From a virus, in IMG/VR virus record IMGVR_UViG_3300040811_000502, positions 1 to 21,523 of that record: 21,523 nt of DNA. One strand, written 5' to 3'. Within the stretch, counting starts at the first letter, position 1. The number at the start of each line of letters is the position of its first letter. Below, piece after piece: positions 11,279 through 15,722 of this stretch. The notes beneath the pieces are model-generated. The model searched no databases, had not been told where the DNA came from, and was given only the letters and a program-made list of their open reading frames with translations. The translations under genes were made by a program, and so were the position numbers.

Positions 11279-11297
11279 ATGATTTGTGGATTATACT

Positions 11298-11672
11298 ATG
11301 TCAAAAAACCTTCCGAGCAAAGAAACCAACTTCTTTGACTCAGATTATAACTTTTCTAAAGAAACGTATTACTCTTTAATCCGAAAAGGACAGCAGGGCA
11401 TTGAAGAAATGCTCGAGGTTGCTGCCGCATCTGAACACCCACGTGCTTATGAAGTTCTTTCTAAACTTATTAAAGACGTCAGTGATGTAAACGATCGACT
11501 GATGGACTTGAATAAGAAAAAGAAAGACTTGGAAAACGCAGATAAAAAACACACAGAAAATACTACGAACAATGTGTTTATTGGAAGCACTACTGAATTA
11601 CAACGATTACTACATCGAGAAAAACTCGGCATAAAAGATATAACACCAAAGGAATCTGATGAAAGTTTATAA
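11298..11672 (+). CDS. 16: Terminase small subunit gp16
   Basis: The 124-residue protein has the central helical pair EVLSKLIKDVSDVNDRLMDLNKKKKDLE, likely coiled-coil, and a conserved NNVFIGSTTELQRLL segment near the C-terminus, as in gp16 of T4-like phages. T4 gp16 has 164 residues; marine relatives are shorter. gp16 forms oligomeric rings that recognise DNA and regulate gp17 ATPase and nuclease. I chose the ATG at 11298 over an in-frame GTG at 11286; neither has a strong Shine-Dalgarno sequence. Its 3' end overlaps the methyltransferase-like gene by 14 bases, which separates it from gene 17. Confidence 0.82.
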   Translation: MSKNLPSKETNFFDSDYNFSKETYYSLIRKGQQGIEEMLEVAAASEHPRAYEVLSKLIKDVSDVNDRLMDLNKKKKDLENADKKHTENTTNNVFIGSTTELQRLLHREKLGIKDITPKESDESL

Positions 11673-12228
11673 GTACGAAAATTACGATCATTATGTTCAA
11701 GAACAAACTTCTGCTAATGAAAGAAAAATAAAATGGAAGTGGGTTCAGGAAGATACAATATCGGAAATTCATCAGTTACAACCAGTAGCATATAAAATTC
11801 TTTGTCATGGCACAAGGAATGCTGCTGAGCAAAAGTATTTTAAAAAATACTACGAGGAAGCAGAAATTATCGGTAGTGAGATATCACATACTGCAAGTGA
11901 TTTTCCTATGACAGTACAACATGATTTTCATGAGGTGAAAGAAGAGTGGGTTGGTCAATTTGATATTGTCTACAGCAACTCGTTTGATCATAGTTATGAC
12001 CCAGAAAAATGCATCATCACATGGAAAGATCAACTATCTGAAAATGGTTTTATGTATATTGAACACGGATATGCTGAAGATATCAATGTTTGTAAAAGCA
12101 GTGATCCTTTGCAAATTTCTCCAGAAGAATTATTAGAACTATTTGACAAGGTTGGTCTTGAGTATAAATCAGATTTTCATAATGATAAAAAAGTTTCAAG
12201 AATTTATCAGTTGCATAAGAGAGTCTGA
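11659..12228 (+). CDS. Class I SAM-dependent methyltransferase-like protein between genes 16 and 17
   Basis: The 189-residue protein looks like a compact Rossmann-type methyltransferase. After a helical N-terminus, KILCHGTRNAAEQ (about 46-58) sits where motif I should be. IIGSEIS (70-76) gives the acidic end of the second strand, with E74 a candidate ribose ligand. DFHEV (89-93) and FDIVYSNSFDHSYDP (101-115) follow as the motif II-IV region, then W.DQLSENGFMYIEHG. Motif I lacks the usual GxGxG and reads H-G-T-R-N; I recall that variant from a phage-associated methyltransferase-like family. The substrate is unknown (DNA, protein and small molecule are all possible). The start has AAAGGA 5 bases upstream and lies inside gene 16; the stop overlaps the gene 17 start (TGATG). 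Confidence 0.65.
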   Translation: MKVYKYENYDHYVQEQTSANERKIKWKWVQEDTISEIHQLQPVAYKILCHGTRNAAEQKYFKKYYEEAEIIGSEISHTASDFPMTVQHDFHEVKEEWVGQFDIVYSNSFDHSYDPEKCIITWKDQLSENGFMYIEHGYAEDINVCKSSDPLQISPEELLELFDKVGLEYKSDFHNDKKVSRIYQLHKRV

Positions 12229-13844
12229 TGACTGACTCATATCAGGGTAATCCAAATGTAAAGGCAGACGGTGTACAGGAGCATTGGGACGACCACAAAG
12301 TCCGAGAATATGCTAAGTGCATGCAAGATCCTGCCTATTTCGCCAGAGAATATGTTAAGATTATCTCGCTTGATAAAGGTTTGGTTCCTTTTGAATTGTA
12401 TCCATATCAGGAGGATATGTTTCACCATTTCAACGATAATCGTTTTTCTATCGTCCTTGCTTGTCGTCAATCAGGTAAGTCTATTTCTTCTGTCGTTTAC
12501 CTTCTTTGGTACGCACTATTCAATCCTGAGAAAACAATTGCTATTCTAGCAAACAAAGGTGCAACTGCGAGAGAAATGCTTGCACGTGTAACACTCGCAC
12601 TGGAAAATTTACCATGGTTTCTACAGCCAGGATGTCGTGCTCTAAACAAAGGTAGCATTGAGTTTAGTAATAATAGTCGTATTGTTGCAGCAGCAACCAG
12701 TGGTTCCTCTATTCGTGGTATGTCAGTAAACTTACTATTCCTCGATGAGTTTGCTTTTGTTGAACGTGCAAGTGAGTTCTATACTTCGACATATCCAGTA
12801 GTATCTTCTGGTGTTGACACAAAGGTTATTATTACCTCGACGGCAAACGGTATTGGTAACACTTATCATAAGATTTGGGAAGGTGCGAATCAAAACACTA
12901 ATGAATATAAACCATTTAGAGTAGACTGGTGGGACGTTCCTGGAAGAGATGAAAAGTGGAAGCAAGAGACAATTGATAATACATCTCAATTGCAGTTTGA
13001 TCAGGAATTCGGAAACACGTTCTTCGGAACGGGCGATACACTTATTAGCAGTGAGAAACTGCTAAACTTACGAGCAAAAAACCCTTCAGAAATTTTGGAG
13101 GGTGGGTCGGTTTTGGTCTACGAGAGACCAAAAGATGGACACAATTACATAATGTGTGTCGATGTAAGTAAAGGAAGAGGACAGGACTATTCGACTTTTA
13201 ATCTTATCGATATTAGCGAGCGACCTTTTAGGCAAGTAGCTGTGTATCGCAATAATACTATTTCTCCACTACTCTTCCCAGATATTATCTATAAGTATGC
13301 AAATCTCTACAACCAAGCATATGTGGTTATAGAATCAAACGATCAAGGTGCTGTTGTTTGTAATGGTTTATATTATGACCTAGAGTACGAGGAAGTGCAT
13401 ATTACTTCCTCGACCAAGTCTTCAGGCATCGGTGTTGAAATGACAAGACGAACAAAACGACTCGGTTGTTCTGGTTTTAAAGACTTGATGGAAACTGATA
13501 AACTAGAAATTGTCGACGAAAATACTATCCTAGAAATATCTACATTTGTTGTAAAAGGCAAATCATATGAAGCATCCGAAGGAAACCACGATGATTTGGT
13601 AATGAACCTTGTGATGTTCGGATTCTTTACAACCAGTCCATTCTTCCGAGAGTTGACTGACATCAATATTAAGAAAATGATGTATGAACAAAGAGTGGCA
13701 GAAATCGAAGCAGATGTGCCGCCATTCGGATTCATACAAAAGGCAGAAGAACCTGCAACAATAGAGGAATTAAACGATCCGTGGTCTGTATTAGAGTTTA
13801 AGGATGCTGACGGGAATACGAGACTGGTCACTGAAGATTGGTAA
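12228..13844 (+). CDS. 17: Terminase large subunit gp17 (packaging ATPase-nuclease)
   Basis: The 538-residue protein has an N-terminal ATPase with Walker A C79-RQSGKS85, Walker B LLFLD173-E174-F and the coupling motif TSTANG. The C-terminal RNase H-like nuclease has D312 in CVDVSKGRGQDYS, E369 in VIESNDQG and D455/D456 in NHDDLVMN. These are the three conserved acidic positions of T4 gp17 (610 residues). gp17 docks on the portal, translocates DNA and makes headful cuts. All catalytic residues are present and there is no intein or intron. The start overlaps the methyltransferase-like stop (TGATG) and has only a weak RBS, so translation is probably coupled to that gene. Confidence 0.97.
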   Translation: MTDSYQGNPNVKADGVQEHWDDHKVREYAKCMQDPAYFAREYVKIISLDKGLVPFELYPYQEDMFHHFNDNRFSIVLACRQSGKSISSVVYLLWYALFNPEKTIAILANKGATAREMLARVTLALENLPWFLQPGCRALNKGSIEFSNNSRIVAAATSGSSIRGMSVNLLFLDEFAFVERASEFYTSTYPVVSSGVDTKVIITSTANGIGNTYHKIWEGANQNTNEYKPFRVDWWDVPGRDEKWKQETIDNTSQLQFDQEFGNTFFGTGDTLISSEKLLNLRAKNPSEILEGGSVLVYERPKDGHNYIMCVDVSKGRGQDYSTFNLIDISERPFRQVAVYRNNTISPLLFPDIIYKYANLYNQAYVVIESNDQGAVVCNGLYYDLEYEEVHITSSTKSSGIGVEMTRRTKRLGCSGFKDLMETDKLEIVDENTILEISTFVVKGKSYEASEGNHDDLVMNLVMFGFFTTSPFFRELTDINIKKMMYEQRVAEIEADVPPFGFIQKAEEPATIEELNDPWSVLEFKDADGNTRLVTEDW

Positions 13845-13937: not shown

Positions 13938-15722
13938 ATGGCATTATTCTCACCTTCCGCGTCTCCTGCGATTACAGTTAGAGAAATCGATCTTACTGGT
14001 GTTTCACCAAACGTCGAAACTTCCCTTGCTGGTCTTGTAGGTGACTTTCAGTGGGGTCCAGTCAATGAGATTGTTAGAGTACAAAACGAAGCAACTCTCA
14101 CTGAGAAATATGGACAACCAAAACTAACCAATGCTGTAGACTTTTTGTCTGCTGCGCAGTTTTTGCGTTATTCGCAAAACCTTCTCCTTTGCCGAACAGT
14201 TAACAACAATGTAAGTGTTGGTGACAGCGCACAAAATGCAACCTCTGGTTCTGTAGAACTTCAGATCGACAATGAAGATGACTATGATGGTCAAAAGTCT
14301 TCTATCGATGGTGACGCTACAGGTATGTGGATTGCTAAGTATCCAGGTGCACTGGGTAACAGTCTGTCTGTCTCTATGCTTCCTTGCTTGTCTTCGGCGG
14401 ATTCTACGTCAACCATCTTTAATGGTTGGCAGTATAAAGACAAATTCGATGCTGCTCCTGGAACTTCCAGTTGGGCAGAAGGTCGTTCAGGCACGATTAC
14501 CAATGACGAAGTACACATTGCTGTGATCGATGAAGACGGTCTAATTTCTGGTTCTAAGGGCACTGTCCTCGAAACATTCCCATTTGTTTCTTTGGCAAAA
14601 GGTGCAAAGACTTCTGACGGCGGCACTAACTTCTATCCTGATGTTATCAACCGTGCTTCTGAGTATATCTGGTTCGGTGGTCTTGATTCTGCCAACCATC
14701 TGTATGGTTCAAACTGGAATACTCAACTGGCAGACTCTGCTGGTGAGACTGTAGACTTTGCTTCTGGCGTTACTTACAACGTCGGTGCTGGAACCAAGTC
14801 ACTTTCTGGTGGTAAAGATACATCTGCACTGGACGCATCCTCAATTACCACTGCGTTTGACAAGTTTGAAGATCCCGATCAGGTTGATGTTCAAATCTTG
14901 ATCGCTCCAGGTATGGCTTCTCAGTTGGCACAAACGACTGTTGTAAACGATCTTGTTGGTATCGCAAAAGATACTCGTAAGGATTGTATTGTTGTAACTT
15001 CTCCAGATCGTGCTGCTGTTGTTAACAACGCTGATGTTGTAAACGACACTGTCACAACTGCTGAGACATTTACTGCGTCTAACTACTTGGTAGTTGATAA
15101 CAACTATCTGTATGTTTATGACAAGTTCAATGACCAGTATGTTTACATCCCTGCTGCATCTTCCACTGCTGGTTTGATGGCTGCAACGGACGCAAACTTT
15201 GGTCCTTGGTTCTCTCCTGCTGGACAAAAACGTGGTCAGTACTCAGGTGTTGCTGGACTAGCATATTCTGCAACTAAGACTGAGCGTGACACTCTGTACA
15301 AGGCGGGTATAAACCCAATCGTACAACTTCCTGGTCAGGGAACTATCCTGTTTGGTGACAAGACCAAAGAGTCTCGTCCATCAGCATTCGATCGTATCAA
15401 CGTTCGAAGATTGTTCCTCGCGATTGAGAAATCAATCTCTCTGGCAGCAAGAAACATCATGTTCGAATTTAACGATGAATTCACTCGTGCTGAATTCGTT
15501 GGTATTATCGAACCAGTACTGCGTGAGATTCAAGCACGTCGCGGTATCCAAGACTTCTTGGTACAGTGTGACGAGCGAAATAACACGCCTGCTGTTATTG
15601 ACCGTAACGAACTGATTGCAACGATCTTCGTGAAACCTGCACGTTCTATCAACTACATTACTCTTAACTTTGTAGCAGTTAGAACTGGCGTTTCCTTCGA
15701 AGAAATCGTTGGCACAGTTTAA
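13938..15722 (+). CDS. 18: Tail sheath protein gp18
   Basis: The 594-residue protein begins MALFSPSASPAITVREIDLTGVSPN and continues with SLAGLVGDFQWGPVNE. The C-terminal domain contains RINVRRLFLAIEKSI..AARN.MFEFND, VEP-like IIEPVLREIQARRGI.DFLVQCDERNNTP and NYITLNFVAVRTG.SFEEIVG. This is the conserved contractile-sheath signature; T4 gp18 has 659 residues, the difference lying in variable outer domains. gp18 polymerises around the gp19 tube and contracts during infection. The RBS AGGA lies 8 bases before the ATG. A dedicated late promoter and a 5' hairpin precede the gene. Identification is firm. Confidence 0.97.
   Translation: MALFSPSASPAITVREIDLTGVSPNVETSLAGLVGDFQWGPVNEIVRVQNEATLTEKYGQPKLTNAVDFLSAAQFLRYSQNLLLCRTVNNNVSVGDSAQNATSGSVELQIDNEDDYDGQKSSIDGDATGMWIAKYPGALGNSLSVSMLPCLSSADSTSTIFNGWQYKDKFDAAPGTSSWAEGRSGTITNDEVHIAVIDEDGLISGSKGTVLETFPFVSLAKGAKTSDGGTNFYPDVINRASEYIWFGGLDSANHLYGSNWNTQLADSAGETVDFASGVTYNVGAGTKSLSGGKDTSALDASSITTAFDKFEDPDQVDVQILIAPGMASQLAQTTVVNDLVGIAKDTRKDCIVVTSPDRAAVVNNADVVNDTVTTAETFTASNYLVVDNNYLYVYDKFNDQYVYIPAASSTAGLMAATDANFGPWFSPAGQKRGQYSGVAGLAYSATKTERDTLYKAGINPIVQLPGQGTILFGDKTKESRPSAFDRINVRRLFLAIEKSISLAARNIMFEFNDEFTRAEFVGIIEPVLREIQARRGIQDFLVQCDERNNTPAVIDRNELIATIFVKPARSINYITLNFVAVRTGVSFEEIVGTV

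Follow-up and report, generated by a model that had tools for sequence, protein, structure and literature searches.

A methyltransferase-fold gene between the terminase genes of a T4-like phage is probably passenger cargo with kin in glycan clusters

The window, that is the whole stretch of DNA that was analysed (21,523 nucleotides, IMGVR_UViG_3300040811_000502), is a 21.5 kb virus record of a T4-like phage. The following features, all on the plus strand, make up its terminase locus.

11286..11672, + strand: TerS, gp16-like (PHROG 445, E 1.7e-39; PF11053, E 2.9e-5; relatives aligned)
11649..11654, + strand: AAGGAA, putative Shine-Dalgarno-like sequence of the methyltransferase gene, within the 3' end of TerS
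11655..11662, + strand: TCTGATGA, 8-base direct repeat, left copy, which covers the start codon of the methyltransferase gene
11659..12228, + strand: ORF of 189 aa, ATG to TGA, with a predicted class I SAM-dependent methyltransferase fold; probable glycan-associated cargo
11803..11829, + strand: residues 49-57, C-H-G-T-R-N-A-A-E, the family form of SAM motif I, at the end of beta-1 and the start of helix A
11959..12003, + strand: residues 101-115, FDIVYSNSFDHSYDP, motif IV region, strongly kept across the family
12224..12231, + strand: TCTGATGA, 8-base direct repeat, right copy, which covers the start codon of TerL
12228..13844, + strand: TerL, gp17-like, intact (PF03237, E 1.7e-20; PF17289, E 3.8e-18)

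The first-pass annotation had described a 189-residue ORF that lies between the two terminase genes and shares 14 bases with TerS and one with TerL; these coordinates were confirmed, the 1-base overlap being TGATG, and the profile matches identified its neighbours as TerS and TerL. Alignment with relatives indicated that the ATG at 11298 is a likelier start of TerS than position 11286, and that the ends of both terminase genes are intact. The nearest annotated phage is C48C1, whose TerL is 71.5% identical to that of the window. The AAGGAA sequence before the methyltransferase start and an AGAGAG sequence upstream of the TerL start make it likely that both the methyltransferase ORF and TerL would be translationally coupled to their upstream neighbours. 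A twin contig with other ends (IMGVR_UViG_3300040809_000228) carries the same junction, with one mismatch in 14,972 bases, and this rules out an assembly chimera and shows that the junction is real. Elsewhere in the window, at 584-1123, an Endonuclease VII-like ORF (PHROG 2914, E 1.6e-32) overlaps a tail-fibre-type ORF. On the twin contig (L307, reverse complement 15076-15702) a 208-aa ORF, which resembles a GIY-YIG homing endonuclease by eye, is located past the major capsid gene, just outside the right end of the window.

The structure of the 189-aa protein was predicted with AlphaFold2 from an alignment of the window and IMG/VR sequences, and the model (pLDDT 83.2, pTM 0.84) arranges its strands in the order seen in class I methyltransferases. 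When the model was compared with the PDB using Foldseek, the top matches were nearly all SAM methyltransferases (TM about 0.6-0.7; best E 8.4e-10, TM 0.69), and the matches in BFVD were mostly viral methyltransferases. Searches by sequence gave fainter signals: Pfam, PHROGs and NCBIfam returned only weak or sub-threshold matches to this protein, those from Pfam being methyltransferases, while among solved structures only weak matches to glycine-sarcosine methyltransferases were found (E 0.12). The Rossmann-methyltransferase layout proposed at the outset is thus borne out by prediction, and the protein very probably adopts the class I SAM methyltransferase fold. It shares with the Methyltransf_11/31-type enzymes the predicted fold, the order of the strands, an acidic residue closing strand 2 and the position of motif IV, while it differs from them in motif I and in scoring under the Pfam cut-offs.

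The glycine-rich GxGxG of motif I is replaced in this protein by C-H-G-T-R-N-A-A-E. The earlier description of motif I as atypical is correct to the letter (HGTRN versus GxGxG), but it does not mark an oddity of this gene, because the variant G-x-x-x-[GA]-x-E is found throughout the family. The core C-H-G-T-R-x-[GA]-x-E is shared by bacterial relatives from Cyanobacteria, Proteobacteria, Verrucomicrobia, Nitrospirota, Patescibacteria and others, and occurs with few changes in the viral ones. CHGTR is therefore a family signature, and the unusual motif I is no sign of lost function. Departures from GxGxG do occur among methyltransferases, so the claim about the fold stands. The acidic end of strand 2, where the ribose would be contacted, is intact as had been noted: E74 is invariant in alignment A1 and is replaced by D in one member of alignment A4. 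Together with the YSNSFDHSYDP block it is strongly conserved, and E57 is invariant in the family. The relatives are 43-66% identical to the ORF in viruses and 35-50% in bacterial genomes; the uncharacterised bacterial family (ICHGTRRGxEQ...YSNSFDHSYDPEKCLNAWMSC) shares its motifs, while its members are mostly 204-267 aa long, with extended termini, and often lie among polysaccharide genes of the host.

The lack of GxGxG and the Pfam scores under the cut-offs could be explained if the gene were an inert or decaying passenger, which retained the fold and lost catalysis. This is highly improbable, since the motif is conserved in both bacteria and viruses, the residues E57 and E74 are invariant or nearly so, and the ORF contains no stop or frameshift. 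Moreover, pN (0.25-0.33) was well below pS (0.62-0.75) in comparisons with all five relatives tested. A decayed enzyme was accordingly rejected as an explanation of the motif I sequence. Identity as a DNA methyltransferase was rejected as well, because by inspection the catalytic [NDS]PP[YFW] or PC motif is absent, and the 189 aa form one domain, too small to include a target-recognition domain.

To place the gene among its relatives, three scans of IMG/VR and two narrower ones were combined, which gave 91 distinct viral proteins, all in uncultured contigs, many of them short. GT25 genes were assigned in the flanks of the relatives with a profile grown from four Pfam-confirmed seeds, and T4 core genes with the proteins of C48C1 and of the window. 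The data showed that GT25-like genes flank 68 of the 91 viral relatives. Among 136 near neighbours searched with Pfam there were 37 GT25 and 15 Methyltransf_24 proteins, along with TylF, epimerases, mannose-6-phosphate isomerase and others; nucleotidyltransferases were also present in these glycan clusters. The neighbours of bacterial relatives likewise include GT2, GT4, FkbM and polysaccharide-biosynthesis proteins. T4-core operons hold 13 of the 91 copies, that of the window included, one further copy is beside phoH without GT25, and the remaining nine were assigned to none of these classes. The core sites are the TerS-TerL junction of the window, and, for the other 12 copies, those between gp4 and gp2, between gp2 and a gp54-like gene, between uvsY and uvsW, where an FkbM methyltransferase gene follows, and around regA (eight members). 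The phage with the gp4-gp2 insertion has GT25 genes elsewhere on the same contig, while several core-inserted copies are in short contigs without GT25. The window copy itself is not beside glycosyltransferases: its neighbours are virion genes, no glycan genes were recognised in the window and 5 kb beyond, and GT25 was absent from the 22.8 kb twin contig. When three members of the family were used as tblastn queries against 50,697 phage records, no match was obtained at E 0.01, and IMG/VR queries with single distant members recovered near copies only. These searches define a conserved, uncharacterised methyltransferase family, which is common to phages and many bacterial phyla and whose genomic setting gives a strong hint of a role in glycan modification.

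Two of the lone core copies (L232 and L041) occupy adjacent junctions of one operon, gp4-gp2 and gp2-gp54-like, and belong to different parts of the tree. One virus contig (L006, shared with L007 and L289) encodes at 365-1420 a 351-aa ORF similar to the RuBisCO large chain (PF00016, E 6.9e-25), near a nucleotidyltransferase gene, GT25 genes and a relative of the methyltransferase.

The place of the gene had suggested a DNA- or terminase-modifying role, and a tie to the terminase genes was examined in the best 80 TerL loci in IMG/VR, one of which was the twin contig. In all 79 others, which are the closest TerL relatives, TerS and TerL overlap directly and the site is empty, as it is in C48C1; within this set the insert is found only in the window virus and its near-identical twin. 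The first-pass annotation had named beforehand, as an outcome that would speak against its proposal, the occurrence of the gene at sites with no link to terminase, and this is what the genomes revealed: glycan clusters, the gp4, gp2 and uvsY junctions and the regA region. A terminase-linked function was rejected on the basis of this survey and of the family contexts, which corrects a tempting reading.

In a wider form, that reading would have the enzyme methylate phage DNA, gp16, gp17 or another protein of the head or the DNA end, with its place tying it to packaging. The tight overlaps with TerS and TerL are in keeping with it, and it is retained at a low probability because two other lone insertions adjoin gp2, the DNA end protector, and gp4, which acts in head completion. 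It is nonetheless very unlikely, since a single viral lineage among the 91 relatives is at the terminase site, other core sites are at uvsY and regA, the gene and the T4-type TerL are about 13-80 kb apart in large records that contain both, bacterial kin are near polysaccharide genes, and the NPPY/DPPY or PC motif of DNA methyltransferases is lacking.

The history of the gene was analysed using a maximum-likelihood tree of 98 rows, with the core groups named after the contexts had been viewed and before the tree was made. The window copy fell into a starred set of four together with three copies from glycan clusters (95/81). The core-inserted copies required five changes on the tree, at least three of them forced by well-supported branches, and one single clade of such copies was rejected (p-AU 0.00014). 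Hence, the core-gene copies have several origins. The regA group is a long-standing clade (8 rows, 100/99), formed by T4-like contigs L258, L261, L264, L266, L270, L275, L292 and L305. In at least two of the regA-region contigs gp44 and regA are separated by an IMP dehydrogenase gene, and in at least one a 2OG-oxygenase-like ORF adjoins it. The old and stable position of this clade beside replication genes suggests that another substrate could be possible there.

Of the window's 26 predicted genes, the methyltransferase ORF is the poorest in G and C, both overall (GC 32.5%) and at third codon positions (GC3 24.2%), a composition in keeping with foreign origin. When the flanks are joined at TCTGATGA, TerS ends in ITPKESDD before its stop, close to the end of the relative L103 (DITPSAEE before the stop), and the restored TerS-TerL overlap is 8 bases, equal to that of C48C1. 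The repeats are suggestive of a clean insertion at this junction. Their reading as an insertion scar goes no further than that, because runs of 8 or more bases are shared by 4 of the window's 276 pairs of gene starts, and no comparable repeats were found at the other core insertions that were checked.

The site has precedents. The gp16-gp17 gap of cyanomyoviruses is a hot-spot for acquired genes (PMC3037559, Sullivan 2010), for which that paper credits Millard 2009, and these phages have 4-14 genes between g15 and g18 (PMC2984593, Clokie 2010). In S-TIM4 and Syn33 the gap spans about 6 kb and contains plastoquinol oxidase, pcyA, plastocyanin and ferredoxin genes, while Mosig and Melnitz have single inserts between gp16 and gp17. 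The earlier premise that an insert here would be new for T4-like phages is therefore wrong for cyanophages. The window resembles this hyperplastic region in that the two terminase genes of a T4-like phage are separated by an accessory gene, and its nearest TerL relative, C48C1, which is listed with no host, belongs to Kyanoviridae, the family of the hot-spot phages. It differs in that one gene overlapping both neighbours stands in place of 4-14 genes over several kb, and in that the site is empty in the rest of its TerL clade. The hot-spot of marine T4-like phages thus also accommodates one lone cargo gene that overlaps its neighbours, in a lineage where every other sampled member has the site vacant.

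Large T4-like cyanophages (P-SSM2, S-SM2, S-SSM7) contain LPS clusters near phoH or hli03 (PMC3037559). The relatives of the methyltransferase are similarly located in clusters of GT25 and methyltransferase genes, several of them downstream of a PhoH gene, while the window copy is alone and the family was found in no isolate of the phage collection. A literature search on glycan methylation in phages found no paper that deals directly with the CHGTR methyltransferase family. Because the hot-spot and the LPS clusters are both published, the insertion is at a known place, and its gene belongs to the kind of cargo that such phages exchange. The gene is probably passenger cargo and no new part of the packaging machine, because its kin are mostly in glycan clusters and the spot is known to collect foreign genes.

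The explanation we favor, with a probability of roughly 55% for the statement as a whole, is that the T4-like phage horizontally acquired a small stand-alone class I SAM-dependent methyltransferase gene, probably from the glycan-modification clusters of related viruses, with their GT25 glycosyltransferases, other methyltransferases, epimerases and nucleotidyltransferases. It would have entered cleanly between TerS and TerL, with neither terminase gene damaged, perhaps through recombination at the short repeat that surrounds the start of TerL, and would be read off the late-gene messenger through the start/stop overlaps with its neighbours. Its product would most likely methylate, late in infection, a sugar or sugar-linked group of a virion or host-surface glycan, and neither terminase nor DNA. 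The neighbours at the terminase site, which are all virion genes, argue against a glycan substrate, and guilt by association with GT25 genes names no substrate.

The main rival is that the enzyme methylates a small metabolite of the host, a free nucleotide-sugar or a lipid, and not a glycan polymer. The structural matches are mostly small-molecule methyltransferases and weak profile matches include the OvoA C-terminal and glycine-sarcosine methyltransferases; the regA-region copies accompany the IMP dehydrogenase gene and 2OG-oxygenase-like ORF, and the cyanophage hot-spot holds metabolic genes. Such fold matches are generic, however, and the genomic company is mainly glycosyltransferases, which leaves this rival possible but clearly the less likely. 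The metabolic or host-directed role that the first-pass annotation had offered as an alternative is counted as supported.

It could also be considered, rather doubtfully, that this is a roaming family of T4-like phages, which repeatedly enters core junctions with neighbours left intact and, at such late-gene or head-assembly sites, may modify a virion component instead of a cell-surface sugar. The insertion in the window is ordinary in kind, and the interesting part is the repeated clean entry at core-gene junctions; the locus offers a tractable case in which to ask how a lytic phage can take a single gene into a junction of overlapping core genes and keep the junction unbroken. In the replication region of phage C48C1 (OQ984149, L229:20481-24227), genes for a DNA methyltransferase, primase, nucleotide-sugar epimerase and UDP-glucose dehydrogenase are found together.
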